Part shown: positions 28,642 through 43,197 of the stretch, piece after piece
Layout: each line of letters opens with the position of its first letter
Position numbering within the stretch: the stretch's first letter is position 1
From: Promicromonospora sukumoe
GTDB lineage: Bacteria > Actinomycetota > Actinomycetes > Actinomycetales > Cellulomonadaceae
Direction of reading: 5' to 3'
Assembly: GCF_014137995.1 (NCBI RefSeq)
Contig: NZ_JACGWV010000002.1
Location: 930,001-994,000 of the forward strand
DNA: 64,000 bases
Translations under genes and position numbers: made by a program
The notes under the pieces: model-generated
The model's input: the letters and a program-made list of their open reading frames with translations, nothing else
Told to the model about the DNA's origin: nothing
Database searches by the model: none

Positions 28642-28714
28642 GCGCCTGTAGCTCAGTGGATAGAGCACCGCTCTCCTAAAGCGGGTGTCGGCAGTTCGAG
28701 TCTGCCCAGGCGCA
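28642..28714 (+). tRNA. tRNA-Arg (anticodon CCT)
   Basis: A complete cloverleaf: acceptor GCGCCTG/CAGGCGC, D arm with GCTC...GAGC, anticodon arm CCGCT-CTCCTAA-AGCGG (anticodon CCT), T arm GGCAG-TTCGAGT-CTGCC. CCA is not encoded. An accessory, less GC-rich island starts directly after it, which makes it a likely historical integration site, although no repeated copy of its 3' end was found downstream. Confidence 0.95.
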
Positions 28715-29046
28715 CCGAATCAGTCGCTTTCCTTCATTCTCTACAACAGGGTGGCGAGGTCCCGTCGAAGACCCTCGATAGCGCACAGTCCTCCGAGGGG
28801 TCTTCGCGTTGTCTTCGTCACCGCTTAGTTGCGAAAACTCAACCGAAAGACTCCCTCACGCGTGCTGGTCGACCCCTGCTTCTCGACGAAAGAGCGGATG
28901 CCCTAGCCACAGTCCACGAACGATGCACTGCCAGGGGTGATCTTTTTGCTCGGTCTGGTCATGCGCCCCGTGGCCCCATACAGTTACTGCCCTCTCGGCG
29001 GTGCACTACTCCCGGCCGCCGGTGATCTACAGGGCGAGTGATTGGT
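28715..29046. other. Gene-free left edge of the island
   Basis: These 332 bp between tRNA-Arg and the helicase gene hold no convincing ORF. A short inverted repeat (CGAAGACCCTCG... / CCTCCGAGGGGTCTTCGCG, about 28769-28809) could terminate the tRNA transcript: the arms GAAGACCCTC and GAGGGGTCTTC pair. The helicase promoter should lie in the right half. Confidence 0.45.
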
Positions 29047-30468
29047 ATGGGACTACCCACGCCCCAGGGGCGGCAGCACTACGTCGTGTACATGCCCCCA
29101 AGAGGCCACCATGTGATCCTCGGTACGGCAGGCACAGGCAAGACGGTCATGGCCGTGCACCGCGCCTTCTATCTGGCGCAACCTGGAACTGAGAACGCCG
29201 GTCCGGTCCTTCTGCTGACCTACAACAAGTCGCTGGTCACCTACATCCAGCACCTGGCATCGGACCACCCCGGTGATGTCACGATCGAGACCTACGGCCG
29301 GTTCGGACGGGGCTACCTGGCATCACAGGGCCTGATGGGCTACGGGCAGATTGCCGGCTCAGACCAGCGTGAAGCACTCGTCGAAGGCGCGGTCAGGGAT
29401 GTCGCGGCCGGCTACCGGCCAGGAGCCCGGTTCTTCACCCGCCCGACCGACTTCTTTCTTGACGAGCTGGCGTGGATCGAGGGCAACGGGCTGTCTACCG
29501 ACGCCGAGTACTTCGACGCGGAGCGAGTTGGTCGCCAGGAACCGCTGCAGCGCCGCCAGCGCGAGGCGGTCTGGGCAATCAGGGAGACATATGTGGCAGC
29601 CCGCAAGGCCGCGGGCCTGCACTACGACTGGGCGTCACTGCCGTCGGCCGTCAAGGCGCAGCTCCATGTGGACTCGTCGAAACGTCGTTACAAGCACATC
29701 GTCGTCGACGAAGCCCAGGATCTGACACCCGAGGCCATCCGGTCGCTGGCAGCCGCGATTCCGCCTGACGGAAGCCTCACGCTGTTCGCGGACTACGCCC
29801 AGCAGATCTACGGCCAGCGCGTGTCGTGGCGGTCGTGTGGGCTCGCGGTTGGCAAGGTCGAGACGTTCATCGACAACTACCGCAACTCCCCAGAGATTGC
29901 ACGGCTCGCGATCGCCCTGGCGAACATGCCGCACTTCAAGGACTCCGCGGACTTGGTCGAACCGCGTGCGCCGATCCGCGCCGCCGGTGCCAAGCCGACT
30001 CTCATCGCGTGCGGGTCCAGCGATGACGAAGCTCTCGTCGTCCGGGACGCCGTCCAGTCGGCCGGTCGCACCGCACGCGTGGGAATCCTGACCCGGACCC
30101 GAGCAGAGGCTCGCGCCGCGATCGCTGAGGTGCGTCGGACTACTCGGGTGACGATGCTGCACGAGAACAACTCGATCGCGACCTGGCAAGCGCCTAGCGG
30201 CGTCTACGCCGGCACCTATCACTCCGGCAAGGGCCTGGAGTTCGACGTAGTTGTGCTGCCGTACTGCAGCGATGGTCGACGGCCCCACGCCGATACCATC
30301 GCTGCGTTCGGGCCTGACGAGGCTGCCAGCCGCGAGAGCCGCCTCCTCTATGTTGGCGTTACCCGCGCACGCGACGAGCTGATCATCTCCCATACCGGGG
30401 CTCTCACGACGCTGCTGCCTCCAGCGACGCCAGATTTGTACGACCTGTACGAGGTGACCACGTCATGA
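29047..30468 (+). CDS. Compact SF1 (UvrD/Rep-like) helicase of a DarT operon
   Basis: 473 residues with all main SF1A motifs: Walker A GTAGTGKT (26-33), motif Ia/Ib (LLLTYNKSLVTYI), motif II VDEAQD (220-225), motif III (LTLFADYAQQIYG), motif IV (NYRNS), motif V (GTYHSGKGLEFDVVVLP) and motif VI (LLYVGVTRARDEL). It is shorter than UvrD (about 720) and lacks room for full 2B insertions. ATG at 29047 has AGGGCGA 9 nt upstream; GTG at 29038 is too close to that site. Its stop overlaps the DarT-like start (ATGA), so the proteins are probably made in a fixed ratio. It may act on ADP-ribosylated or invading DNA. Confidence 0.85.
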   Translation: MGLPTPQGRQHYVVYMPPRGHHVILGTAGTGKTVMAVHRAFYLAQPGTENAGPVLLLTYNKSLVTYIQHLASDHPGDVTIETYGRFGRGYLASQGLMGYGQIAGSDQREALVEGAVRDVAAGYRPGARFFTRPTDFFLDELAWIEGNGLSTDAEYFDAERVGRQEPLQRRQREAVWAIRETYVAARKAAGLHYDWASLPSAVKAQLHVDSSKRRYKHIVVDEAQDLTPEAIRSLAAAIPPDGSLTLFADYAQQIYGQRVSWRSCGLAVGKVETFIDNYRNSPEIARLAIALANMPHFKDSADLVEPRAPIRAAGAKPTLIACGSSDDEALVVRDAVQSAGRTARVGILTRTRAEARAAIAEVRRTTRVTMLHENNSIATWQAPSGVYAGTYHSGKGLEFDVVVLPYCSDGRRPHADTIAAFGPDEAASRESRLLYVGVTRARDELIISHTGALTTLLPPATPDLYDLYEVTTS

Positions 30469-31187
30469 CCGTTGACGCCTGGGTTGCTGATGCACTTGCC
30501 GTTCGCGGCGTGACCCGACTCGCTCACGTCACGCCCGCCCGAAACTTGCCCAACATCCTGATCGACCAAGCGATCCGATCGGTGAAGGACATGGGCGACG
30601 ACGCCCGCGCCATCTACGCGGCGAACGATCTGCAGCGCCTCGACAACCATCCCGACAAGGTCAGCTGCTCCTTGGAGTACCCGAACGTGTTCTACCTGAA
30701 CAAGGTCAGGCACAGGCCCGACGCCCACAACTTCCCGGACTGGGTATGCATTCTCTTGGACCGTGACGTTGCAGCCACTCCCGACGCGCTGTTTTGCCCA
30801 CGCAACGCAGGCGCTTACGGAGCGTCCAAGGAGGCAGGCGTCGCCGGCCTCGACGCGTGCTACACCGAAGCGGTCTCTGGCTCCTACGGCAAGACCTACA
30901 GCCGTGGGACAAATCATGACCCGCGGTGCCCGACAGACGTCCAGGCCGAAATCCTCGTTCCTGCACCAATACCTCTGACGTCTGCCTATGGCATCGTGTT
31001 CCCGTCAGAACAGGCCGCCAGTAACGAGTTCGTACGACTGGAGCAACTCTCCGTGGCTATCCCGAACCACCTTCAGTGGATCGTCTCTCCCGGCCTGTTC
31101 GACGCCGCCAGCGTTACCAACGCCGTCCGAATGTCGCGCGGAATACTTGAGCAGCCATGGGTAGGCGAGGGGAGGGGTTCTTGGTGA
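30465..31187 (+). CDS. DarT-like DNA ADP-ribosyltransferase (DUF4433)
   Basis: 240 residues with the DarT family pattern: N-terminal LAHVTPARNLPNIL (His21 and Asn27, expected NAD contacts), central SCSLEYPNVFYLNKV, DWVCILLDRDVA, ALFCPRNAG, and the catalytic block QAEILVPAPIPLTSAYGIVFPS with Glu162 in the place of the catalytic glutamate. DarT enzymes attach ADP-ribose from NAD to bases of single-stranded DNA, blocking replication; they act as toxins and anti-phage effectors. The ATG at 30465 overlaps the helicase stop, with GAGGTGA upstream. Its stop overlaps the next GTG. Normally DarT is paired with macrodomain DarG; here the next gene is an ARH-fold hydrolase. Specific base and motif cannot be predicted. 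Confidence 0.8.
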   Translation: MTVDAWVADALAVRGVTRLAHVTPARNLPNILIDQAIRSVKDMGDDARAIYAANDLQRLDNHPDKVSCSLEYPNVFYLNKVRHRPDAHNFPDWVCILLDRDVAATPDALFCPRNAGAYGASKEAGVAGLDACYTEAVSGSYGKTYSRGTNHDPRCPTDVQAEILVPAPIPLTSAYGIVFPSEQAASNEFVRLEQLSVAIPNHLQWIVSPGLFDAASVTNAVRMSRGILEQPWVGEGRGSW

Positions 31188-33469
31188 GCGCCCTGACACA
31201 AGTGGATGTCGAGCGGGCCGTGGGCTCGCTACTCGGTGCGGCGGTTGGCGACGCTCTGGGCTGGCCGCAGGAGGTGCGCGGGGGTCTCGTCGGCGGTCAG
31301 AAAGCACGCGACCGGTGTGAGCCCAAGCCCGAGTTCGTCGCATGGACTCGGAGCGCCGGTCACTACTCCCGACGCTACTCCGACCGTGTTGAAGCTGGGG
31401 AATACAGCGACGACACCCAGCTGCTCCTAGCCGTAGCTCGGTCTTGTTTAGTAGGACACGATTGGTACGAACACCTAGTCGCCGCTGAGCTCCCGACCTG
31501 GCCCTTGTATCAGCGGGGTGGGGGCGGTGCCGTGCTGGCAGCAACCAACTCATGGGCTGATGCCGTGCCGCCGTGGACACATGACTCCGCACGTCGCGCA
31601 AAGGTAGCCGACCGATACGCAGGCGCCGGCGCCAACGGCGTCGCCATGCGTATTGCGCCCCACGCGATTCGAGCCCGCGCAGACGGCGAGCTATTCCACC
31701 GAGTACTCCAGGACGGCCTAACCACACACGGTCACCCGCGAGCCCTCGTGGGCGCCCTGGTCTACGCTTCCGCACTCCGCGCCGCTTTCCAAGCGTCGGG
31801 ACCGCTCTCGTTCGGGGAGCTCCTTGATGCGGCACGGGCCGGCCTCATCCCTCCTGATGCAGCCCTGGACGCGATCCCCCCGCAGTGGCTGGGTGAGCTC
31901 GCAATGAAGCAGTTTGCGGACACTTGGGAGCAAACGAACCAAGAGACCGAAGAGCTCCTAACGATTGCCGATGCATCAATTCGCCGTGGTGCGATGAGCA
32001 ACGCCGAGGCAACGCTTGAATCCCTCGGCTGCACCGATCCCAAAATCAATGGAGCGGGCACCGTCAGCGCGGTCGGCGCGTTGTACCTCGCAAGCCGTTT
32101 TGCAGCACGGCCCATGGACGGACTACTTACTGCCGCATTCCTCCGCAGGGGCGATACCGACACACTAGCTTCAATGACCGGTGCACTCCTGGGCGCTGTC
32201 CATGGCAAGGACTGGCTGGGAGCACTCGCACCTGCCGTTCAGGACTCCGACTACATCACCGCAATTGCCACCGCTCTTGTTGAGTATCCGGATAGGAGTG
32301 CGGGGGACTCACCCGTAGGCGACGGCAGCGAGTTCAGGAGACACCGTGAACAGTGGCGGCAGGACGCACCAGAGATCCGGGTCGGGAGCCGGGGTGTCTT
32401 TCCTGACGGTCGGCGCTACCACGCGACGGGCGTTGACATGCGGACCGATGTCGACATCAAACGAATCCGCCTACGTCTGGAAGATGGCCAGACTGTTCTG
32501 TCAGATATCCGCGAAGTCAGATCGACTCCTCAAGAGCCCGCTGATCGAGACATCAACTTGGTGACGCGCTTTCCAGACACCTCCTATCAGGTAAAGGATT
32601 TTTCTCCACCCTCAGGGGAATCAGGTGTCGTCACTGCGTTAACAAACAGCCTCCGTGAAACAACTGCCTTCTATGCCAGGTTGCTCGGAAGGGAAATTCC
32701 TATACATGGCAATGAAGCGGTTGTCACTGAGTGGCTCCATCTACGGCAAGCGGCGCGTGAGCTCCGCCCCGGTGAAGCATCCTCAGTTGCAGTAACACTG
32801 CATGTGATGACGCCACCATCCGCGAGAAAAGATATTGTCGTGGAGGGGTACGATCGAGAAACGGGCACGATGACCGTACGCGATCCAGACGGACGGAGCG
32901 TTCGCATTCGACCTGGTTCAGTCGTCGGTGAGCAGTCTCAATCACGGCCCACTGCCAGCGATCGCCCCATAGCCACCTCAAAGGAATCGGAGATTCCATT
33001 ACACATATTCGGGGACTTGACGGACGAGTTCTATGCTGGTGTTGGACGAGCGGGGACACTATCCTCGATGCTCGAAGACAGGATGCGCGCGCTAATTCAA
33101 GCAATGGAAGATGAGCCCCAGACATCACACGCTGGACAAGGCGCATCCGCACTCGTGACGATGGCCCGGAAGCGTGCACCCAGCCTTGGCGATGCCTGGA
33201 GAGAGTTCGACGAATTCGCTACGAGGGCCGATTCTGTGCTGCGACTCCGGAACGACCTGGTGCACAATCTCTGGCAGCCCAAGTCAGGCGGCTACTTCTT
33301 TGGCCACCGCATCGACCAGCGGACCGGTGAACGTCGCTCGACAACCCTATCGATCGACGATGTCCGTCATGAAGTGGCCGAACTTCTTTCGCTCAACGAG
33401 GAGTGGAACCACTGGTACATGCTCGCCGGATCTTCGCAGGTTGACGCCGAACCCCCCGCGCACAAATGA
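31184..33469 (+). CDS. ADP-ribosylglycohydrolase (DraG/ARH) fused to a long C-terminal region with a HEPN-like motif
   Basis: 761 residues. Residues 10-370 form an ARH-fold hydrolase with all metal-site signatures: GAAVGDALGW (18-27), YSDDTQ (74-79), HGHPRALVG (182-190) and GDTDTLASMTGALLGAVHG (323-341). It probably removes ADP-ribose added by the adjacent DarT-like enzyme. Residues 370-600 are unrecognised and beta-rich. Residues 600-761 look helical and contain RNDLVH (689-694), an R-x4-H pattern as in HEPN domains. GTG at 31184 overlaps the DarT stop (GTGA) with GGGGAGGGG 6 nt upstream. From about 32300 the third codon positions become visibly AT-richer than in the helicase gene, hinting at a separate origin of the C-terminal part. 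Confidence 0.75.
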   Translation: MSALTQVDVERAVGSLLGAAVGDALGWPQEVRGGLVGGQKARDRCEPKPEFVAWTRSAGHYSRRYSDRVEAGEYSDDTQLLLAVARSCLVGHDWYEHLVAAELPTWPLYQRGGGGAVLAATNSWADAVPPWTHDSARRAKVADRYAGAGANGVAMRIAPHAIRARADGELFHRVLQDGLTTHGHPRALVGALVYASALRAAFQASGPLSFGELLDAARAGLIPPDAALDAIPPQWLGELAMKQFADTWEQTNQETEELLTIADASIRRGAMSNAEATLESLGCTDPKINGAGTVSAVGALYLASRFAARPMDGLLTAAFLRRGDTDTLASMTGALLGAVHGKDWLGALAPAVQDSDYITAIATALVEYPDRSAGDSPVGDGSEFRRHREQWRQDAPEIRVGSRGVFPDGRRYHATGVDMRTDVDIKRIRLRLEDGQTVLSDIREVRSTPQEPADRDINLVTRFPDTSYQVKDFSPPSGESGVVTALTNSLRETTAFYARLLGREIPIHGNEAVVTEWLHLRQAARELRPGEASSVAVTLHVMTPPSARKDIVVEGYDRETGTMTVRDPDGRSVRIRPGSVVGEQSQSRPTASDRPIATSKESEIPLHIFGDLTDEFYAGVGRAGTLSSMLEDRMRALIQAMEDEPQTSHAGQGASALVTMARKRAPSLGDAWREFDEFATRADSVLRLRNDLVHNLWQPKSGGYFFGHRIDQRTGERRSTTLSIDDVRHEVAELLSLNEEWNHWYMLAGSSQVDAEPPAHK

Positions 33470-33521
33470 CATTTTCGGCAGTTCTGCGCGAGTTTCGGTA
33501 GGAGTACGGTGACGATGAAGT

Positions 33522-33905
33522 TTAATTTATATGACTCACGACAACTCGGTAGAGCCCGCCGGGCTCACTCTGCGCCGCCTTTTCACTGATGTCACTCAGC
33601 TCGCCGCCTCGCTGATCAAGGGCTGGGCTGACCAAATAGGCCTTGAAGACGTTATTCGCTCGTTCGACGGCCTTCGTGAAACCCCCCGGCATCGCGTCTA
33701 CGTCATCCGATCTACAGATGGCAAACCCACCGCTGAGCCAGTGAATGCCCATCTTTCGGCATTCGTCCTCGAAGAAGTAGACCCAACTCTCGGGTGGCCT
33801 ACGGTCGATCCATGGCGTTACCTGGATCTCCGCGCTGAATCGAGCTGACTTTTGGTGGTCAGCCTCCACAAACGTTAACGGCACGAACTCGGGCTCGGTA
33901 GTCAT
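33522..33905 (-). CDS. Hypothetical small protein in the DarT island
   Basis: A 127-residue soluble protein on the minus strand, not recognised. It contains ESWVYFFEDECRKMGIHWLSGGF and DDVDAMPGGFTKAVERANNVF. ATG at 33905 is taken; GTG at 33926 would add 7 residues. A 105-residue ORF overlaps it on the plus strand; the minus reading has a more protein-like composition. Orientation against both neighbours suggests independent expression, perhaps as a regulator or immunity factor. Confidence 0.5.
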   Translation of the reverse strand: MTTEPEFVPLTFVEADHQKSARFSAEIQVTPWIDRRPPESWVYFFEDECRKMGIHWLSGGFAICRSDDVDAMPGGFTKAVERANNVFKAYLVSPALDQRGGELSDISEKAAQSEPGGLYRVVVSHIN

Positions 33906-34076
33906 GTAGCCATGATATTCCTGCACTCTGGCCAGCGCGCAGCGTCGGGACGCCCTTAGAAGTGGTTTTTCACCATCCGAACACTCCTACTTTCCAGCTG
34001 CCCTCTCGGCGACGCTGCCGTGTACAATCGCAATCGCTTGCAAACTCTGCGCAAAATGTCACCACGAGGTGCAGTC

Positions 34077-35702
34077 ATGGGAGATGTGTCAGAACAAACC
34101 GCTCAGCGTCTTGTCGCTGCGCTCGGAGAGCCATTTCTCAAGTACGTCTTGGCCCTACCGGAAGACAAGCCGGCTCTAGAATCCATCCCGAAAATGACCA
34201 ATCCCGAGCCCGCAATTTTTCTGCTAACGGCAATAAACCAAGCGCCTTCAAGCGGGGACAGTGAACTCGATGTCACCCTGTTCGCATCAGGCAGCTTTGC
34301 TCGTTATCAGCCAGAACTTGGCGGGTCGCTCGCGCACCACATTCGACGTCTTTGTGGCGGCGAGATAGGAGACATTCCGGCGGGAAAGGACCCGGTCGTC
34401 CAGGCTCTGCGCACAGTCACTCAAGACGTTTGGCCCATCCTGTTGCTGCGGCCACCTGCCAAGGGGCCCCGTGCTTTCTGGATGAGCGCCATTTCGGGCA
34501 TAATTTCACATCCTGGAGCGCTCGACGCTGCTAAGACTTTCATGGCAGATGCAAAGCTGAGCCTCCTCTTTCCTGAAGCTGAGTCGATTGAAGACGTGAC
34601 GACGATGGGGAAGGAAGTGCTCGGCATTCAAGGTGAGTGGATTATGAGTAGCGGACAGGGCGGGACTCGTCAGCTCATTTCCGTTCTGGACGCCATCATC
34701 TTCAATGCCGCTGTGGTTGCCCAACTGGATGGTTCACCCCTTACACACGCCAGCATCATGGCTAGCCTGGAGAAGTCGGTCGCAACTTTTCGCACGCTTG
34801 CGTCTAAACGCGCTGTCGAGGTTTCCGCGATTATTGGGTTTGGCGGTGTGCGGGTGGACGGCGAGAGAAAATTCTCTTTTGGTGATGGTGAGCTCCGCGC
34901 GATGCTTCCCATCGAACATAACCTCATTCTTAGCGAGTCTGACCGGGTTACGAGCGTGTACGCGACGCGATTTTCTGTACAGATTCTGAATATCTCCAAG
35001 CATGACCCAAGTGACCCTGACCGCTTTTTTAGGGAATTGCAGAAATATGCTCCGCGTATCCAGGAGGCGCATCGCACGCTTCAGCGCCGAGTTGACCGGG
35101 TGCGCCTTGCCTTGCTCCTGGCTTCGCCCACGAAAGACCGGCTTCTTGCAACAAGCCAGGTATCGCGCTTTATCGGTGACCCAACGCAGTCCGGCGGGTT
35201 CTCATCTTGGGAGATGGACCCGCGCGGCCCTGCTAGCTACGAAGTAGTTGAAGAGGTTGGCAAAGAAGCGGTGCGCTGGCACGGCCTCATTCAGGCAAAG
35301 CATCCGGAGTCTCTGAATATCGCCATGAAGCGCTTACTAAGCTCGGTGTCTCAGCGGTGGGACGCAATTGACGCCTTCATCGACGCCGTTGTCGTCTGGG
35401 AGAACGCGTTTGGTACGCAGCAGGAGACGACCTTTCGTGTCACCGCATCCATAGCAAAATTGCTTGAACCCGGGAGCGCCAATGACCGAGCCAAACTGCA
35501 GACGGAACTGAAAAAGCTCTACTCTGCTCGGAGCCTCCTTGTGCATGGAGCGAAGGAGCCTAAGCCTGAGGATGCGTGGGCGCAGCGTGAACGGGCAATC
35601 GAGATTGCTGTTGAGCTCCTCCGCAAGCTCTACGACGAACGACCCGATTTGCTTGAACTTCCCTCGGACGCACGTGGGGCTCAGTTGCTTTTGGAGGGAT
35701 GA
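34077..35702 (+). CDS. Hypothetical protein with a C-terminal HEPN-like region
   Basis: A 541-residue protein with no signal peptide or membrane helix. I recognise no domain in residues 1-440. The last 110 residues are helical, with KLYSARSLLVHGAK (RSLLVH is an R-x4-H pattern) and a run of acidic and basic helix, like Apea-type HEPN domains found in defence proteins. ATG at 34077 has GAGGTG at 7 nt; GTG at 34020 is an alternative. Codon use and base content are markedly AT-richer than in the chromosome around, in line with horizontal transfer. It follows the helicase-DarT-ARH operon and may be part of the same defence island. Confidence 0.65.
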   Translation: MGDVSEQTAQRLVAALGEPFLKYVLALPEDKPALESIPKMTNPEPAIFLLTAINQAPSSGDSELDVTLFASGSFARYQPELGGSLAHHIRRLCGGEIGDIPAGKDPVVQALRTVTQDVWPILLLRPPAKGPRAFWMSAISGIISHPGALDAAKTFMADAKLSLLFPEAESIEDVTTMGKEVLGIQGEWIMSSGQGGTRQLISVLDAIIFNAAVVAQLDGSPLTHASIMASLEKSVATFRTLASKRAVEVSAIIGFGGVRVDGERKFSFGDGELRAMLPIEHNLILSESDRVTSVYATRFSVQILNISKHDPSDPDRFFRELQKYAPRIQEAHRTLQRRVDRVRLALLLASPTKDRLLATSQVSRFIGDPTQSGGFSSWEMDPRGPASYEVVEEVGKEAVRWHGLIQAKHPESLNIAMKRLLSSVSQRWDAIDAFIDAVVVWENAFGTQQETTFRVTASIAKLLEPGSANDRAKLQTELKKLYSARSLLVHGAKEPKPEDAWAQRERAIEIAVELLRKLYDERPDLLELPSDARGAQLLLEG

Positions 35703-35778
35703 GTAGACGTGAGCTCAGGCCACCGTGCAGGCTGGCTTGAGCCATGCCGTTCCTTGGCGGGAGTGGATCAGCCCTTGG

Positions 35779-36135
35779 TCAAGCGGAAGGCCACCGAACC
35801 GTGACGACCACCGAGTCGGCTTCCGCCTGCCATGAGTGGTCGATGCCCGGACCCCAGACGACATAGTCGCCCTGCCGCTCAAGTACGGTGCTGCCGACGG
35901 TCAGGTCGAGCCGGAAGCGGCCGCTCACGAGCAGAAGCATCGTGGTGCGCCGATCGTCAGTGGTCCACTCGGGTCGTTGCTGACCCTCAGGGTGGACGCC
36001 CCACTTCACCTCGAGTGCGTCGGAGTTCCGTACCGCCACCCCGGGAGTCTCGGGAGCGATGAAGTTGCCCAGGAGCCAGCCGCGGTGCTGGTCCGCGTCG
36101 TCAGTGGCGTTGCCGCTGTACCAGGTGTCTGACAT
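35779..36135 (-). CDS. Cupin-domain protein
   Basis: 118 residues with a single cupin barrel: RTTMLLLVSGRFRLDLTVG and YVVWGPGIDHSWQAEADSVVVTVRWP. The His of the second motif (IDHSW) is present, the first motif is poor in metal ligands. The ATG at 36135 overlaps the stop of the upstream XRE-Nudix gene (TGATG), so both are co-translated. It probably binds a small ligand or acts with that regulator. It ends close to the DarT island. Confidence 0.75.
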   Translation of the reverse strand: MSDTWYSGNATDDADQHRGWLLGNFIAPETPGVAVRNSDALEVKWGVHPEGQQRPEWTTDDRRTTMLLLVSGRFRLDLTVGSTVLERQGDYVVWGPGIDHSWQAEADSVVVTVRWPSA

Positions 36136-37724
36136 CACGTTCCCCATTCAACGCGCGGCAGATCGACGCGCTCAGGTCCGATCTCGGTGAGGCGGCGGAA
36201 GCCTTGGAGTAGAGCAAACAGGCCCTCGGTGCTCCAGGCCGGTTCGTGCGCGAGTGTATCCAGCAGGAAGCGGTCTCGGCTGGAGTAGCGGCGCAGGTTG
36301 TTGGACTCCCAGTTGGCTTCGATCTGGCCTCCGAAACGGGCCCACCACTCCTCGTCGTCGATGACGACGAGGCTTGCGAACTCATAGTTACCGGTCAAGA
36401 GGTTGTACCCGAATCCGGTGCACTCCATGCGCCAGGTCCGCTCATCGGCACGCTCCATCAGCCATGCCATCGGTTCAGAAAGGCGGCTGAAGTGCATCGG
36501 GTCGGCCTGCCGGGACTCGGAGACCGTGGAGTCGACGTCAGCCCGCCCGAAGAGCTCTTCTTCCATCTCTCGCGCAAGCGTTGCCCCGATCGGCGCATCA
36601 TCGGCGACGTCGACCAGTGGGCCGTGGAATCCCTTGGGTATCACGGAGAGCCGTCGGCTGCCGTTGAGTACCTGGTTGGAACGTTCTTGGATCAGCAGCA
36701 GGTAGTCGCCATCGTGGCGCCAGGTCTTCGGTCGAGCGATCGCAGTTAGCGCGAGAGCACCGCCGGCGCATAGCCGCGTGCCGACGTCGAGGACGGCTGA
36801 CAGGTCGGGTAGGTAGCGGTCACGCAACGGAAGGTCGCCTGGCCGCGGCCGCGGGTTGGTGGCGATGGCATCCACCAGTTCGTTCTCAAGCAGGTCCAGC
36901 GTGAGGGCGTAATGGATGAAGTCCGCCTGGGCGAGACGGCCTTTCATCCCTGCTCGGCTGATCGTGAGGTCGATGAGACGGTACAGATCCCGGTTCACCA
37001 TCGTTGTTCCGAAACGCTCGACCTCCGCGGCTCGTTGCAGCGCCGCGTCACGGCCGACGTCGTCAAGTGTCGGTCGGGCAACCGGTGCAGCGTCGAGGCG
37101 GAGGCCGTCTACCTCCTCGCCGATCGGTAGAGCCAGGTCGAGCCAGTCTGGTCGGGTCAGGATGCTCGTGGACAGTGTGCCGAGCTCTGTGCGCGCCGTG
37201 TATGGCTGCCAGCCGTCACGAAACTCGTAGTAGCTCGCCAGAGCAGCGACGATCTCCCGCCGACCGACATCGGCACGAACGACTTGCGGCAGGACCTGCG
37301 GCCTGGGGTCTCCACCTTGCGACAGCGCCTCGACTCTTTGCTTCGCCTCCCCTGGAGCGAGTCCGGCAGCGTCGTCGATCCATCTGAGGGCTGCATGCAT
37401 CCCGGGCGAGATCGGGCGATGTTCCACTGTGCTCGGCTGGTGCGGGCCTGACTCGACGCCCCGTGCGGTGTGCTCCAGACTCCCGCTGGGCGCCGGCTCG
37501 ACGGCTAGGAGGTCAGCCAAATCGGCCAGAGTGACCTGGAGTGCCTCGGCCAGCATCGGGCGGACCCACAGGGCCGGTGCGACCTCGCCCCGCTCCCAGC
37601 GTGCGACGGTCGTCCGATCGATCTGGAGCTGTGCTGCCAAGGCTTCCTGGGACAGCCCGACCAGATTCCGGCGCGCGACGAGCAGGTCGCGCCGTCCCCG
37701 CGCTGATGTTCGCCTGGTTCCCAA
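36135..37724 (-). CDS. XRE-family regulator with C-terminal Nudix-like domain
   Basis: 529 residues. An XRE HTH occupies residues 13-70 (LVGLSQEALAAQLQIDRTTVARWERGE). Residues 70-330 are helical and unassigned. The C-terminal 200 residues carry a Nudix-like helix (LAREMEEELFGR, about 390) and following strands (TGFGYNLLTGNYEFASLVVIDDEEWW). It is transcribed away from the lasso cluster, whose precursor lies 222 bp away, and likely controls it and the cupin gene. The TTG start at 37724 is uncertain: GGGGGAG lies very close to it. A functional link to the AICE HTH-Nudix protein at 697-1347 is only in architecture. Confidence 0.7.
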   Translation of the reverse strand: MGTRRTSARGRRDLLVARRNLVGLSQEALAAQLQIDRTTVARWERGEVAPALWVRPMLAEALQVTLADLADLLAVEPAPSGSLEHTARGVESGPHQPSTVEHRPISPGMHAALRWIDDAAGLAPGEAKQRVEALSQGGDPRPQVLPQVVRADVGRREIVAALASYYEFRDGWQPYTARTELGTLSTSILTRPDWLDLALPIGEEVDGLRLDAAPVARPTLDDVGRDAALQRAAEVERFGTTMVNRDLYRLIDLTISRAGMKGRLAQADFIHYALTLDLLENELVDAIATNPRPRPGDLPLRDRYLPDLSAVLDVGTRLCAGGALALTAIARPKTWRHDGDYLLLIQERSNQVLNGSRRLSVIPKGFHGPLVDVADDAPIGATLAREMEEELFGRADVDSTVSESRQADPMHFSRLSEPMAWLMERADERTWRMECTGFGYNLLTGNYEFASLVVIDDEEWWARFGGQIEANWESNNLRRYSSRDRFLLDTLAHEPAWSTEGLFALLQGFRRLTEIGPERVDLPRVEWGT

Positions 37725-37908
37725 TGCTCCCCCTGAGCCGCCCCGCGTTTGCCCAGGTCAGCGTCCTGGTGCCACAACCTTGCTACAACCCTGCACCAAA
37801 CGAGCCCTGTTCGCGACGAAGTAGGCCGGATTCGATGGTCCCGGAGCACCGCGGATCAGTTGGCCGCGTGCTCTGGGTGTCGGCATCCGGCGGCACTCTG
37901 CCATCCCT

Positions 37909-37926
37909 TCCGCAGGTACCTGCGGA
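37909..37926. promoter_or_regulatory. Palindrome upstream of the lasso precursor
   Basis: TCCGCAGGTACCTGCGGA is an 18-bp perfect palindrome ending 9-10 nt before the AGGAGG site of the precursor gene. It may be an operator for the divergent XRE protein or an RNA hairpin affecting translation. The rest of 37725-37908 holds no ORF and should contain the promoters. Confidence 0.5.
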
Positions 37927-37946
37927 GGCAGACCAGGAGGACGCAG

Positions 37947-38063
37947 ATGCAGGAGACGGAAACCTACAGCACCCCCGTGGTGGCCGACCTCGGTTCGGTC
38001 GCTGAGGTCACGCTCGGCAAGTACGCCGAGGACTCGCAGGACGAGGGCCGCTACTTCGAGTGA
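37947..38063 (+). CDS. Lasso peptide precursor
   Basis: A 38-residue precursor, too small for routine gene calling. The leader (residues 1-23) has the recognition pattern YSTPVVADLGSVAEVTLG: Tyr and Pro of YxxP for RRE binding and Thr at -2. The core is GKYAEDSQDEGRYFE (15 residues). Gly1 can close a macrolactam only onto Asp9, since positions 7 and 8 are Ser and Gln, giving a nine-residue ring and a six-residue tail with bulky Arg12, Tyr13 and Phe14 to lock it. Asp6-Ser7 lies within the ring, where the associated methyltransferase could form an aspartimide. ATG at 37947 follows AGGAGG. Cleavage site and ring are inferred. Confidence 0.85.
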   Translation: MQETETYSTPVVADLGSVAEVTLGKYAEDSQDEGRYFE

Positions 38064-38129
38064 TCCACCCGAGCGGGGGCGGTCCCAACATGCCGCCCCC
38101 GCTCCTGCACAGATGAGAGGGGCACCGTC

Positions 38130-39944
38130 ATGGTCTGGCTCGCTGGAGCATCGGCCGCGATTCCCGGGCCAGGACAAGCACGACAGCTGTGGGGCGGAGA
38201 GCGGCCCGTCTGGGTCGTCGACGAGCCGGACCGGCCCGAGACGGTCGTGCGCATGGTGGAGGACGGGACACAGCGCCTCGCCGTCGTCGGTGACGTCTGG
38301 CTGTCGGGCGGTGAGCTGGCACGCGGTCTGGCGCACGTCCGGCGAAGCGACTGGCACGAGCTGACGCGCTGGCCAGGCTCGTACTGGGTGGTCGCCGATA
38401 CGGGTAGGAGCACAGTCGTTCTGACCGACCTGTGCGGGCAGCGCCCGGTCTACCACGCACGCTCGGATGACGTCGCCCTCTGGGCCACACAGGCCAAGCC
38501 GCTTGCGCACGCCACCAAGGCCGCCATCGACCAGGCCGGGATGGTGCATCGGCTGGTGGTCCCCACGCTCGGTGATCTGGTCGGTGCGCACACCACGTTC
38601 GCCGGCGTCCACCGCGTACCCGGTGGCCACGCCCTGACGCTGACCGCACGATCGCGCCACGTCGATCCCTACGAGCCGGACCAACAGCCGACGACGTTCG
38701 CGGAGTCCGCCGTGCGGCTGCGGGATGCCCTAACCACCGCTATCGAGGCGCGCACCACTAGCCCCGCCGAGACCATCACCGCCGATTTCTCGGGCGGGCT
38801 GGATTCGACCACGCTCGCGCTTCTCACGGCTCGGGCTGGGCGGGATGTGCTGGGCGTGACGCTCGCTGACCGGCTCAACCCCAACGACGATGTTTCCTAC
38901 GCCGTCCTCGCCGCGACCGCTGAGCCCCGCCTACGGCACGAGCTGGTAGCCCCTGAACCGCCGCCAACATTCTTCAACGATCTGCTCGAGGCCCCAATCA
39001 CCGATCAGCCGCACTCGGATGCCGGGCGGTGGGCTCGCAAATGGTCCTACCAGCGCCACGCCGTAGCGGCTGGCAGCACGCTCCACCTGACCGGGTCGGG
39101 CGGGGATCTGCTGCTTGCTGCACCCGCGACCTGCCTGGCAGACCTTGCAGCAAGCGGCCACCACCTCACGCTGTGGCGCGCTGCCAGGGCGCGCGCCCGG
39201 CTCAGGCACCGACCCGTCTACGACGTCGCCCAGAATGCCTACCAGTTGGCAGACACCTCCTATCCTGATGCGCTCCGCCAACTAGCAGCGGCCATCCGGC
39301 TGGGTGGTCAGCGTGCACACGGGCGTCGGCCACTGCGCTGGTTGGTTCCAAGTGGCGTTGCCGCTTGGCTGACCCCCAATGCTCGGATTGGCCTGCTGAC
39401 CAGCATCTCGGATCTGGCAACTGTCGCTCCGCGCGGCTACGGCTCGATGAGCAGGCGTCGTGCGCGGGACGAGGTGCGCGAGTTCGGCACCTACCAGGCC
39501 GAGCTCAACGCGCAGGCAGCCTCGCTCGGCCTGCGGCTGCACACCCCCTTCCTGGACAACGAAGTCGTCCGGGCATGCGTGGCGCTGCCGCCCTACCTCC
39601 ATAACCATCCGCACCGCCAGAAGCCGCTCATGGCCGAAGCCCTGCGCGGTCTGGTGCCGAGCAGCCTGCTCGACCGCCGCACCAAGGGCGTCTACGGCGC
39701 GGCTGGCTATGTCGGTGTCGCCCGGAACATCGAGGTCATTCGGTGCTTGCTCGATTCGTCCGAGCTGGTTGCTACCGGCCTCCTCGACGCCGATGCGGTC
39801 GCGCACGACCTCGCGCTCGCCGCCGCTGGCATCCCGACCCGCTTCGCGGCCCTGGAGTCGGTCATCACGGCCGAACTGTGGCTCAGCCAGTACCGCGCCG
39901 AGACCAGCGTCCCGCAGTGGGAGGTGACCGCACATGCGCACTGA
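38130..39944 (+). CDS. Lasso cyclase (asparagine-synthetase-like C protein)
   Basis: 604 residues. The N-terminal part resembles the glutaminase domain of asparagine synthetases but starts with Met-Val, not Cys. The synthetase domain has the ATP pyrophosphatase loop SGGLDS (221-226) and the motif SGSGGDLLL later. It adenylates Asp9 of the core and closes the ring onto Gly1. ATG at 38130 has GAGGGG upstream. It overlaps the RRE gene by 11 nt. Confidence 0.9.
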   Translation: MVWLAGASAAIPGPGQARQLWGGERPVWVVDEPDRPETVVRMVEDGTQRLAVVGDVWLSGGELARGLAHVRRSDWHELTRWPGSYWVVADTGRSTVVLTDLCGQRPVYHARSDDVALWATQAKPLAHATKAAIDQAGMVHRLVVPTLGDLVGAHTTFAGVHRVPGGHALTLTARSRHVDPYEPDQQPTTFAESAVRLRDALTTAIEARTTSPAETITADFSGGLDSTTLALLTARAGRDVLGVTLADRLNPNDDVSYAVLAATAEPRLRHELVAPEPPPTFFNDLLEAPITDQPHSDAGRWARKWSYQRHAVAAGSTLHLTGSGGDLLLAAPATCLADLAASGHHLTLWRAARARARLRHRPVYDVAQNAYQLADTSYPDALRQLAAAIRLGGQRAHGRRPLRWLVPSGVAAWLTPNARIGLLTSISDLATVAPRGYGSMSRRRARDEVREFGTYQAELNAQAASLGLRLHTPFLDNEVVRACVALPPYLHNHPHRQKPLMAEALRGLVPSSLLDRRTKGVYGAAGYVGVARNIEVIRCLLDSSELVATGLLDADAVAHDLALAAAGIPTRFAALESVITAELWLSQYRAETSVPQWEVTAHAH

Positions 39945-40242
39945 GCCGTTGACGTTCCTCAAGCCGCCGCGCTACGTGCGCGCCACGATCACCCGACAGG
40001 GCGGCATGGTCCTCGACCTACGCGGCCGAGGACGCTGGCGCGCCCTGAGCCCGGTAGCCGCAGCGTGGTGGCAGTGCTTAGCCACGGGCATGAGCGTCAC
40101 CGCAACCGCCGACCACATCGCCGCCCGCTACGGGATCTCTCAGGAGCGAGCACGGCGTGACGGCGATGCACTCGTCCGAGACCTGCACGGGCGCGGCCTG
40201 CTGCGGCCGCCCTATCGCTCACGAAAGGACCGTGCGATATGA
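39934..40242 (+). CDS. Lasso RRE protein (PqqD-like, B1)
   Basis: 102 residues with the PqqD/RRE fold: LDLRGRGRWRALSPVAAAWWQCL...GMSVTATADHIAARYGI. It binds the leader (YxxP) and delivers the precursor to the protease and cyclase. It overlaps the cyclase end and, by ATGA, the B2 start. Basic C-terminus. Confidence 0.9.
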   Translation: MRTEPLTFLKPPRYVRATITRQGGMVLDLRGRGRWRALSPVAAAWWQCLATGMSVTATADHIAARYGISQERARRDGDALVRDLHGRGLLRPPYRSRKDRAI

Positions 40243-40658
40243 GCATCGCCATGGCGACCCAGATCGCACCGACCCGCCCAGCACCCGGCCATGCGGTGAT
40301 AGCCATCACCAGCCTGCTTATCGCCGTGGGCATGCTCCGACTGCTACCACTGCGCGCCGTCCTCGCACTGGCTGGAAGCGTCCAGCAAGTCGCGCCGCGG
40401 CATGCTTCGCTGGATGTCGCCCGCGAGGTCATCCGCGCTAGGGACTGGGCAGCCGCGCACTACCCAGGCCGGGCCACCTGCCTCGACCTCTCGCTCACTG
40501 CTTTCCTGATCGCCGCCTGGCGAGGGCGTCACGTCAGCTGGTGCATCGGCTGCCGCTTCAACCCGAGCGAGTCACACGCCTGGATCGAAGTCGACGGCGA
40601 GCCAGTGGCTGAGCCCGGCATGTTCGATGACCCCTTCCACGTGACCATCCGCCTGTGA
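40239..40658 (+). CDS. Lasso leader peptidase (transglutaminase-like B2)
   Basis: 139 residues of the lasso B2 family. A hydrophobic helix near residues 18-35 is followed by the cysteine-protease core: Cys81 (RATCLDLSL), His113 (ESHAWIEVDG) and the acidic residue after it as the third member. It removes the leader before Gly1. Its start overlaps B1. Confidence 0.9.
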   Translation: MSIAMATQIAPTRPAPGHAVIAITSLLIAVGMLRLLPLRAVLALAGSVQQVAPRHASLDVAREVIRARDWAAAHYPGRATCLDLSLTAFLIAAWRGRHVSWCIGCRFNPSESHAWIEVDGEPVAEPGMFDDPFHVTIRL

Positions 40659-40689
40659 TCCATCGGCTCCACGAAAGGAACCAACCCGC

Positions 40690-41688
40690 ATGAGTCCCAG
40701 CACGACCGACAGCGTGGACGCGGCCGCCCGCGCCATCCCCGCAGAGCTCTACCACGGGGCGGACGGCAAAGCGGTGCGCCCGTGCACCCCGGCGCCCGTC
40801 ACGCTGCGCCACCTGCGGATGCTCGACGTACGACCAGAGATGCGCGTCCTGGAAATCGGCACCGGCTCGGGCTACTCGGCCGCACTCCTGTCCCACCTCG
40901 TCGGCCCCACCGGCGTCGTGGTTACGGTCGACATCTCTGCCGACCTCTCCGAGCGAGCGCGGGGCCTCTTCGCCGAGCACAGGCACCAGGTGCAAGCCAT
41001 CCACGGTGACGGCATGTACGGCTGGCCTGAGGGCGCACCCTACGACCGCATTTTCGTCGGTACCACGCCACCCCAGATCCCTGCCGCGTGGCTCGACCAG
41101 CTCGCCCCCGGCGGTGAGCTCATCGCCGGCTGCCTGCTGTCGTCGCTACCCGGTGCCTATGCGGTCGCCCAGATCCGCAACACACCCGACGGCGAGCCGG
41201 ACGTCTTCGTCCTCGCCGGTGGCTACACGCCCACCATCGGGGACGAGAAGCCGCAGGCAGCCACCTACGTGACCGCGGACGACGACGACAGGTTCGACCT
41301 CGCGACCAACGCCACGATCACCGAGGACGCCGCCCGCGAGCTCCTGGCCGCCCTGCGCGTCGGCCGAGCCACCACGTGGACTACCGAGCCGGACGACTAC
41401 CTGCACCTCAAGAACTGGCTCATCGCTCGCGACCCCGAAGGGCTTCTGGTCACCACCACCGAACTCGGAACGGGCATCGGGCTCGGGTCTCTTGGCGGCG
41501 AACCGGACGCTGCCTTCGTCACAGGCACACACCTGGTGACCCGTCCGGCCAACTCGGCCGTGGGTACCAGGCTGCACGACCTCATCACCAACTGGCGGCT
41601 GGTCGGTTCGCCCACCACCCATGAGCTCCCGGCGCGACTTGTCCGCTCGGAGAACGGCTACACCGTCACCGTCCAGCCACTTACCTAG
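40690..41688 (+). CDS. Lasso-associated isoaspartyl methyltransferase homologue (PIMT-like)
   Basis: 332 residues, longer than housekeeping PIMT (about 210). The SAM motif is VLEIGTGSGYSAALL (53-67), with the acidic VVTVDIS, DGMYGWPEGAPYDRIFV and APGGELIAG following. The last 120 residues are an extra domain seen in peptide-modifying members. PIMTs located in lasso clusters methylate a ring Asp, and the ester collapses to an aspartimide (known for cellulonodin-2 and lihuanodin). The Asp6-Ser7 pair in the predicted ring fits. ATG at 40690 has AAAGGAA upstream; it follows the B2 gene by 31 bp. Confidence 0.85.
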   Translation: MSPSTTDSVDAAARAIPAELYHGADGKAVRPCTPAPVTLRHLRMLDVRPEMRVLEIGTGSGYSAALLSHLVGPTGVVVTVDISADLSERARGLFAEHRHQVQAIHGDGMYGWPEGAPYDRIFVGTTPPQIPAAWLDQLAPGGELIAGCLLSSLPGAYAVAQIRNTPDGEPDVFVLAGGYTPTIGDEKPQAATYVTADDDDRFDLATNATITEDAARELLAALRVGRATTWTTEPDDYLHLKNWLIARDPEGLLVTTTELGTGIGLGSLGGEPDAAFVTGTHLVTRPANSAVGTRLHDLITNWRLVGSPTTHELPARLVRSENGYTVTVQPLT

Positions 41689-41697
41689 GGAGTTGCC

Positions 41698-41832
41698 ATG
41701 ACACTCGTCAACGTGCTCACCAGACTCGGCACCATCCGGACCCGTATGACGCGCTTCCGCTGTTACTGCAACTGCGACACGTGCAAGGTCGGTCGCCACT
41801 GCCACAACCCCGAGAACAACTGCGACTTCTGA
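41698..41832 (+). CDS. 44-residue cysteine-rich peptide at the end of the lasso operon
   Basis: Starts 9 nt after the methyltransferase stop, with GGGAG 6 nt upstream of the ATG. Residues 1-20 are basic and amphipathic; residues 22-42 contain six Cys (22, 24, 26, 29, 35, 42) and two His (34, 36), as in RCYCNCDTC...GRHC. This may bind zinc or a Fe-S cluster, or be a second modified peptide. A strong terminator follows, so it belongs to the operon. I know no name for it. Confidence 0.65.
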   Translation: MTLVNVLTRLGTIRTRMTRFRCYCNCDTCKVGRHCHNPENNCDF

Positions 41833-41858
41833 GCCAGAGCTACGGCCCCTTTCAAGAC

Positions 41859-41888
41859 AGCGGCACCCACGCTTCGGTGGGTGCCGCT
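41859..41888 (+). terminator. Terminator of the lasso operon
   Basis: A perfect 12-bp stem AGCGGCACCCAC / GTGGGTGCCGCT (41859-41870 and 41877-41888) with a GCTTCG loop follows the cysteine-rich ORF. No clear T-run. Confidence 0.8.
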
Positions 41889-41934
41889 GATGCTCCAGGG
41901 GGCCGCCTCTGTTCGGCGAGTCACAGAGGCGCAC

Positions 41935-43197
41935 CTACTGCTCGACGAGGTGCCCGGCGGGTACCGCCGGGCGCACTTCGTCGGCCAGCTGCTCTGGGTC
42001 CAGACGCCCGGCCCGGGCCTCGGCCCGCTCCCCGCCTCGGGCCAGCGTCGCCACCACCATGACGACCAGTCCGGCCAGGGTCACGACGGCGCCCGCCCAC
42101 AGCGGGGACGTGTACCCGAGCCCGGCGGCGAGCGTCAGCCCGCCCAGCCACGCGCCGAACGCGTTGCCCAGGTTGAAGGCCGCGATGTTCGCGCCGGAGG
42201 CGAGCGTGGGCGCGGCCGACGCGTGCCGCATGACCCGCATCTGCAGCCCCGGCACGGTCGCGAAGCCGACGGCGCCCATCAGCACCAGGCTGATCATGGT
42301 CGCGACCTGGCTGGTCGCGGTGAGCGCGAAGACCGCCAGGACCACGGTGAGCAGCACCAGCAGTGTCAGCAGGGTGGCCCCGAGGTTCTTGTCCGCGGCC
42401 TTGCCGCCCACCAGGTTGCCCGCGAACAGGCCCGCCCCGAACAGGATCAGCAGCCACGGCACCGTCGAGCTCGCGAACCCGCTGACCTCGGTGAGCGTGA
42501 ACGCCATGTAGGTGAACGCGCCGAACATGCCGCCGAAGCCCAGCACCGTCACGACGATGGACAGCCACACCTGCGGTGCGCGAAACGCCGCGAGCTCGCC
42601 GCGCAGGCCCGGACCGGCCTGCCCGCTCGGCCCCGCGTCGTCGGGCACCCCTACCCGGGCCGGGACCAGCAGCGTGATGCCGATGAACGCGAGCACGCCG
42701 ATGCCGGTGATGGCCCAGAAGGTGGAGCGCCAGCCCGCCGCCTGGCCGAGCAGGGTGCCGAACGGCACGCCCAGCACGTTGGCGACGGTCAGCCCGGCGA
42801 ACATGATCGAGATGGCGGCGGCGCGCCGGTCGCGGGCGACCAGGTCGGCCGCCACGACCGCGCCGATGCCGAAGAACGCGCCGTGGCACAGCGCCGCGAC
42901 GACCCGGCCGAGCATCATCAGCTCGTAGGTGGGCGCGACGGCGGACACCAGGTTGCCCGCGATGAACAGGATCATCAGGCCGAGCAGGGCCTTCTTGCGG
43001 TCCACCCGGGTCAGCGCGGCGGTGAGGCCGACGGCGCCGACCGCGACGGACAGCGCGTAGCCGGAGATGAGGTATCCGGCGACGGTCTCGGTGACGCCGA
43101 AGTCCGCGGACACCTCGGGCAGCAGGCCCATGATGACGAACTCGGTGAGGCCGATCCCGAAGCCCCCGATGGCGAGGGCCCACAGGGCGACAGGCAT
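41935..43197 (-). CDS. MFS efflux transporter (DHA1, AraJ/PbuE-like)
   Basis: 420 residues, about 12 membrane segments, starting PVALWALAIGGFGIGLTEFVIMGLLPEVSADFGVT, typical of the AraJ/PbuE sugar or purine efflux group. It is 37 bp downstream of the aldo/keto reductase in the same direction and probably co-transcribed. It may export a compound metabolised with that enzyme; it is separated from the lasso operon by its terminator, so lasso export by it is possible but weakly supported. The longer open frame on the same strand in frame 2 is a shadow. Confidence 0.85.
   Translation of the reverse strand: MPVALWALAIGGFGIGLTEFVIMGLLPEVSADFGVTETVAGYLISGYALSVAVGAVGLTAALTRVDRKKALLGLMILFIAGNLVSAVAPTYELMMLGRVVAALCHGAFFGIGAVVAADLVARDRRAAAISIMFAGLTVANVLGVPFGTLLGQAAGWRSTFWAITGIGVLAFIGITLLVPARVGVPDDAGPSGQAGPGLRGELAAFRAPQVWLSIVVTVLGFGGMFGAFTYMAFTLTEVSGFASSTVPWLLILFGAGLFAGNLVGGKAADKNLGATLLTLLVLLTVVLAVFALTATSQVATMISLVLMGAVGFATVPGLQMRVMRHASAAPTLASGANIAAFNLGNAFGAWLGGLTLAAGLGYTSPLWAGAVVTLAGLVVMVVATLARGGERAEARAGRLDPEQLADEVRPAVPAGHLVEQ

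Follow-up and report, generated by a model that had tools for sequence, protein, structure and literature searches.

Two types of DarTG system have been described, each coupling a writer of the DarT superfamily to a linked eraser: DarTG1 (DarT1-NADAR), in which the two genes are adjacent, and DarTG2 (DarT2 with the macrodomain protein DarG), which is found in defence islands. A passage of PMC12255303 reports that members of both types protect E. coli against phage, and a part of PMC9503650 that names coupled systems gives DraG-DraT, DarT-Macro/NADAR and Macro-sirtuin, with DarT-ARG not among them. Here we describe a locus in a 64,000-nt stretch (positions 930001-994000, hereafter the window) of the 6.5-Mb genome of Promicromonospora sukumoe, in which a DarT gene is flanked by genes for a helicase and an ADP-ribosylglycohydrolase (ARH). 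From the sequences we file this trio as a DarTG-type variant, predicted to ADP-ribosylate DNA reversibly, that is neither DarTG1 nor DarTG2, since its eraser is of neither kind. The first-pass annotation of this DNA had set the locus against DarTG with a macrodomain antitoxin; that antitoxin is indeed known, and the comparison was incomplete in that a NADAR-bearing type is known too and DarT1-NADAR is the closest relative.

Among other systems, DraT/DraG, the 6dre toxin/immunity pair (which we take to be Tre1-Tri1) and the Listeria ADP-ribosyltransferase-ARH pair (8za7) all differ from the trio in that their transferases are not DarT. DraT and Tre1 modify proteins, and we know of no helicase or VOC domain in any of these pairs. 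Human ARH3 also differs, being known as an ADP-ribosylserine hydrolase; low activity on base-linked uracil ADP-ribose is reported for it in a passage of PMC13036486. Among the papers listed in searches of the open-licence PubMed Central literature, preprints lying outside that scope, we found no description of a helicase-DarT-ARH or DarT-ARH system, although a mention in an older survey (10.1007/82_2014_414) is possible.

Three overlapping genes encode a helicase, a DarT and an ARH-VOC protein

The trio genes lie on the + strand and start 0.3 kb 3' of a tRNA-Arg gene. Their features are as follows.

29047 (ATG; in-frame GTG 29038)..30468, + strand: superfamily 1 (SF1; UvrD/HelD-like) helicase, 473-476 aa, from Pfam, PDB matches and motifs
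30465..31187, + strand: DarT1-type ADP-ribosyltransferase, 240 aa, from PF14487, the 8baq match and catalytic residues
GTG 31184..33469, + strand: ARH-VOC protein, 761 aa, predicted eraser, from PF03747 and a structure model
31196..32293, + strand: ARH domain, residues 5-370, with GDALGWPQE, YSDDT, TH and DTDT motifs
32609..32929, + strand: VOC (glyoxalase/bleomycin-resistance-like) domain, residues 476-582
33005..33433, + strand: C-terminal helical stretch, residues 608-750, with RNDLVH at 689-694; HEPN-like by motif only

Both the open reading frame coordinates and the sequence bear out the overlaps claimed in the first-pass annotation: the DarT start overlaps the helicase end by ATGA, and the GTG start of the ARH gene (31184) overlaps the DarT end by GTGA. 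Its domain assignments likewise stand, since the helicase carries GTAGTGKT and VDEAQD (UvrD_C 7.1e-16, UvrD-helicase 1.6e-12, both over cut-off), the DarT (PF14487, 2.2e-13) has its catalytic Glu in QAEILVP, and the third protein matches ADP_ribosyl_GH (PF03747, 1e-35) with all four motifs in place. What that account of the ARH gene overlooked was the VOC domain and the helical C-terminus with its Rx4H motif. The open frames and intact motifs rule out decayed genes.

The trio is conserved across phyla

A DarT profile built from 48 sequences gave 219 confirmed matches. The best 80 of these reduce to 79 distinct loci in named genomes, a set that is therefore biased to this DarT clade. At 71 of the 79 loci, phmmer and hidden Markov model (HMM) scans found helicase, DarT and ARH in the same order and on the same strand. 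The remainder comprised four helicase-DarT loci with no eraser seen, two DarT-NADAR loci and two helicase-DarT-NADAR loci; in three of the four eraser-less cases (L044, L047 and L050) the contig ends at, or at most 0.3 kb after, DarT. The four-base helicase/DarT overlap recurs in 58 of 73 rows, two of which are the window locus. The 71 trio loci, several of them from metagenome assemblies, span 17 phyla and include one archaeal locus. Both viral contigs that we found carry the trio, as do four of the eight plasmid records with a DarT match (L103, L104, L105 and L219), the other four having NADAR directly beside DarT by coordinates; at L105 the trio adjoins TnsA-like and DDE transposase genes. 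The trio is thus a conserved, mobile system. The first-pass annotation had made its reading depend on how often the three genes co-occur, and the genetic part of that reading survives the survey.

A reverse search with the ARH-subfamily profile, usually scoring no more than three candidates per genome, found three genomes above 200 bits among the 396 sampled from the window's phylum, exactly those with the trio, and the next best match reached 68.8 bits. Together with the 71 of 79 loci this rules out chance adjacency. The pairwise distances of the three proteins correlate with r 0.84-0.87, a level reached in 0 of 2000 shuffles, with no correction for host phylogeny, and may also reflect shared host descent. 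These distances, like the ARH residue counts below, omit L051, L056 and L059, as well as L001, which duplicates the window locus. A phage origin was rejected because DarT, the only protein searched there, had no match in 50,697 phage records.

Separately from these results, one locus that holds a complete trio also carries a second helicase-DarT pair, inverted and without ARH (L002:3869-5988).

Each DarT has one kind of eraser

Evenly drawn genome samples yielded PF14487 matches in 21 of 396 genomes of the window's phylum, 26 of 398 of the Sphingomonas phylum and 22 of 398 of the Staphylococcus phylum. We called erasers with ARH, NADAR and DarG-type macrodomain HMMs at 40 bits or more within 700 bases of DarT. 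In the 153 pooled DarT loci the eraser was a macrodomain in 55, NADAR in 13 (4 with helicase) and ARH in 77 (76 with helicase), with none seen in eight (L044, L047, L050, L071, L089, L095, L099 and L100). The pool includes two seed genomes (G397 = L137/L019, G396 = L158/L074), overlapping or double places (L119/L140, L120/L141, L155/L164) and the near-identical L074 and L075. The three erasers are mutually exclusive: no locus of the 153 has two of them beside DarT.

The NADAR-DarT1 antitoxin occurs directly after DarT, in the slot otherwise held by ARH, in 4 of the 79 loci (L065, L068, L074 and L075), and the two Staphylococcus loci among these, L074 and L075, keep the helicase. This substitution and the absence of double erasers strengthen the earlier claim that ARH stands in place of the usual eraser. 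At the 71 trio loci, the flanking sequence retrieved (up to 10 kb) held no NADAR match, nor did these loci have a DarG-type macrodomain match; ARH follows DarT in them. PF22397, the NADAR-DarT1 family, was present in both NADAR-type genomes tested and absent from six ARH-type genomes, from G399 (the genome of L071) and from the window's own genome. Two trio genomes, G397 and G404, have neither PF22397 nor the general NADAR family PF08719.

The writer is DarT1-like

The window DarT belongs to the DarT superfamily (PF14487, 50.8 bits against a cut-off of 22.5). With its family profile, the best PDB match is E. coli C7 DarT1 (8baq; 8.7e-31 and 110 bits), whereas DarT2 (7yk3) reaches only 0.41 and 13 bits. 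Section 10 of PMC11543638 gives R52, D54, N104, M71 and E152 as essential in E. coli C7 DarT1, D54, N104 and Q150 as acting on guanine or its phosphate, and Y75 as contacting guanine. Residues were mapped by printed alignment, the PDB chain running one residue ahead of the paper's numbering. The catalytic E152, which is E162 in the window DarT, is kept in 77 of 77 trio DarTs, as are R52, D54, N104 and Q150; D54 is absent from all 11 macrodomain DarTs. Relatedness and R52, D54, N104 and E152 therefore place the writer in the DarT1 subtype. It departs from DarT1 at M71, which is Tyr in the window DarT and in 72 of 77, and at Y75, where 67 of 77 have Ala or Val. M71 is not universal among NADAR-linked DarTs either (9 of 16), and the Staphylococcus DarT has Tyr at this position and is yet paired with NADAR.

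In a tree of 103 DarTs the macrodomain DarTs stand apart, and 74 of the 77 trio DarTs fall in one 82-row clade with a support of 98 in the SH-like approximate likelihood-ratio test (SH-aLRT). The two DarT-NADAR loci from Acidobacteriota fall in this clade as well, together with the helicase-DarT-NADAR loci of Staphylococcus. The three other trio DarTs form a deeper branch. The tree comes from a quick search with SH-aLRT support only; L093, L094 and L074 have long branches, and the L110 fusion was trimmed to its last 230 residues. Clade, D54 and the missing macrodomain rule out canonical DarTG2. Since the closest relative is the writer of DarTG1, guanine would be a likelier target than thymine, and guanine in single-stranded DNA is the likeliest target predicted from sequence.

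A different possibility is that DarT modifies a protein or other acceptor, perhaps the helicase, and that ARH reverses this mark as DraG does for DraT. We consider this quite unlikely, as the trio DarTs keep D54, N104 and Q150, residues with a guanine-directed role in DarT1, and as NADAR, a remover of guanine ADP-ribose, fills the ARH slot in the same DarT clade.

The predicted eraser has the ARH fold

The structure model of the third protein (mean predicted local distance difference test score 81.6) has the ARH fold; it was compared by VIA-align with Foldseek's top 1000 chains, which barely cover residues 371-477 and 578-761. The conserved motifs are those that bind metal in ARH/DraG hydrolases, and their residues are kept in 68-69 of 69 loci counted, so that the family fold and metal-binding motifs are both present and the active-site conservation on which the first-pass annotation had staked its claim holds in the homologues. 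ARH is placed where an eraser is expected, and we predict that it would remove the mark set by DarT. The C-terminal stretch, which has no Pfam match, appears in the model as low-confidence helices, with RNALVH at the matching place in P0131; from the motif and these helices we assume that it is HEPN-like.

Two further observations concern the ARH protein and its neighbourhood. At L061:10669-14904 the gene directly after DarT joins an ARH to a type I methylase (HsdM_N, N6_Mtase). In the window, a 560 aa gene at 34020-35702 without Pfam matches ends close to an RSLLVH (Rx4H) motif, presumably also HEPN-like.

The helicase is tied to DarT

The helicase is a member of the SF1 UvrD/Rep-like helicases. 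Its PDB matches are HelD, UvrD and PcrA (best 1.7e-10, the others weaker), and 38 aligned sequences show no variation at the GK, DExQD, NxRN, KGLEFD and TRA positions, which marks the Walker A/B and later SF1 motifs as intact. It is the best conserved of the three proteins across loci (mean identity 47%, against 41% for DarT and 36% for ARH). PADLOC's best matches to it are NERD+UvrD (8.3e-29) and Gabija GajB (8.9e-16). Here the partners of the helicase are instead DarT and ARH, and a scan of six window genes matched neither NERD nor GajA; Gabija, in which the GajA OLD nuclease adjoins GajB, is not what we find, there being no GajA among the PADLOC matches listed.

Because it is retained in loci with a NADAR eraser (L074 and L132/L166), the helicase appears tied to DarT rather than to ARH. 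The DnaB replicative helicase is not an SF1 helicase. Co-transcription of M. tuberculosis DarTG with DnaB, linked to replication control, is reported in a passage of PMC12170906, so that the helicase link has a parallel. DarT1 activity was undetected on double-stranded DNA according to a passage of PMC11543638, which would give a helicase a task: we suggest that it exposes or senses single-stranded DNA.

UvrD-, Rep- and HelD-type helicases, to which the trio helicase is related, remodel stalled complexes. The helicase might thus act on the protective side, clearing or remodelling ADP-ribosylated forks so that ARH reaches the adduct, with DarT and ARH as toxin and eraser. The retention of the helicase beside NADAR would fit this, as would the report, in PMC7003065, that recombination and excision repair act against DarT2 lesions, at which replication stalls. 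We nevertheless think it unlikely, since in all seven plasmid DarT1-NADAR pairs opened, of 28 NADAR records, DarT precedes NADAR and no helicase-annotated gene is seen in the regions shown (the gene tables being incomplete), which argues that the eraser needs no helicase in general.

The operon lies in an island at tRNA-Arg

The first-pass annotation had placed the operon in an island beside tRNA-Arg. Empty sites in two congeners now confirm this and give exact ends.

28642..28716, + strand: tRNA-Arg (CCT), from ARAGORN; its 3' end is the insertion site of the island
28708..28716, + strand: 9-base repeat AGGCGCACC, left copy, single in the empty sites L212 and L213
28717..41926, strand not applicable: integrated island with the operon, 13.2 kb, from the empty sites L212 and L213, with lower GC content at about 31-37 kb
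41927..41935, + strand: 9-base repeat AGGCGCACC, right copy, from sequence reading

A search with the tRNA region covered 19 related genomes, 12 of the same genus. In 8 of these 12 the best match stops exactly at the 3' base of the tRNA (28716), and in the remaining ones it ends at 156, 158, 160 and 199 of 201. Eight congener regions were compared further, and in two of them (L212 and L213) the tRNA end runs straight into window position 41927; these empty sites and the AGGCGCACC repeat common to both ends define the island as 28717-41926. A search for a duplicate of the tRNA 3' end had found none with a 20-base pattern, the actual repeat being only nine bases and revealed by the empty sites.

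The island holds the trio, the 560 aa gene, a helix-turn-helix (HTH) gene and, at 38130-41685, Asn_synthase, PqqD, Transglut_core3 and PCMT genes, which we take to be a lasso-peptide-like set. Pfam identified no recombinase among the 12 genes scanned. One congener carries at the same tRNA-Arg a different element (L217:727-19600), with a serine recombinase and a type IV secretion system coupling protein, so the site serves more than one element. That element matches window 35738-36471 at 95%; this segment comprises the HTH gene end and a gene of 122 aa that lacks Pfam matches.

Flanking genes suggest a defence role

In a PADLOC comparison at 1e-15, flank proteins (108 of 109 chosen, from 353 called at 48 loci) matched 111 families, with BREX PglX/PglZ, type I/IIG restriction and Lamassu among those listed; control proteins (108 of 165, drawn from 20 regions that lie in part in different genomes) matched 15 families, with no restriction or BREX model. 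These figures count models, not proteins, one protein often being matched by many, and mad3 matches three proteins in each set. Mobile island and restriction/BREX flanks support a defence role only indirectly and are no more than suggestive. As PADLOC 2.0.0 has no model matching the ARH protein, the trio is probably uncounted in PADLOC-based surveys.

Writer and eraser could be as we propose and yet serve growth control, or the stability (addiction) of the island. Location in an integrated island with no Pfam recombinase and on plasmids would suit such a role, as would the tie of M. tuberculosis DarTG to DnaB and replication control. Given flanks rich in restriction/BREX models, and the phage protection reported for both known DarTG types, we regard it as improbable.

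A proposed mechanism

Taken together, we think the trio is probably a mobile writer/eraser module for phage defence, a third DarTG-like type in which DarT marks single-stranded DNA, ARH reverses the mark and the helicase gives or gates access. The helicase, translated first, would make or track single-stranded DNA such as phage replication intermediates or stalled forks, and so provide DarT with substrate or gate its access to it. DarT would move ADP-ribose from NAD+ onto a base, most likely guanine, in that DNA. The co-translated ARH, standing where DarTG1 has NADAR and DarTG2 a macrodomain, would hydrolyse the adduct and protect the host. Infection or stress would tip this balance, such that replicating phage DNA (and that of the cell) becomes modified and replication is blocked. 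The more specific version, in which the ARH-fold enzyme strips ADP-ribose from a DNA base, the VOC domain recognises the adduct, the helicase is the link to single-stranded DNA and the whole is a third widespread DarTG type marking phage DNA reversibly, we put forward tentatively, at a little short of an even chance.

Several points weigh against this mechanism. Parts of PMC11833690 report that the ARH SCO5809 of S. coelicolor is inactive on ADP-ribosylated guanosine RNA, as are human hydrolases (per figure legend), and its abstract calls NADARs the sole family reversing guanosine RNA ADP-ribosylation. The residues at M71 and Y75 mean that the modified base could differ from guanine. General NADAR (PF08719) occurs in 6 of 11 genomes, the window's own included (5 of 10 others), and could repair guanine adducts there. 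The module is not always complete: L071:8514-12790 has helicase and DarT without a neighbouring eraser, followed by an SLFN-g3 helicase gene, in a genome whose best ARH-subfamily match has only 25 bits, and L165:4441-6893 (Bacillota sample) has a DarT-ARH pair without a neighbouring trio-type helicase. The negative search of phage records and the host-descent explanation of the correlated distances count on the same side.

Where two kinds of DarT-linked eraser, macrodomain and NADAR, have been described so far, ARH would bring a third and unrelated fold to this position, conserved over 17 phyla. If so, this ARH should cleave ADP-ribose linked to a base, contrary to published negatives for other ARHs. 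The tightly linked SF1 helicase would be a built-in route to reach or sense single-stranded DNA, and may bear on how DarT systems are triggered.

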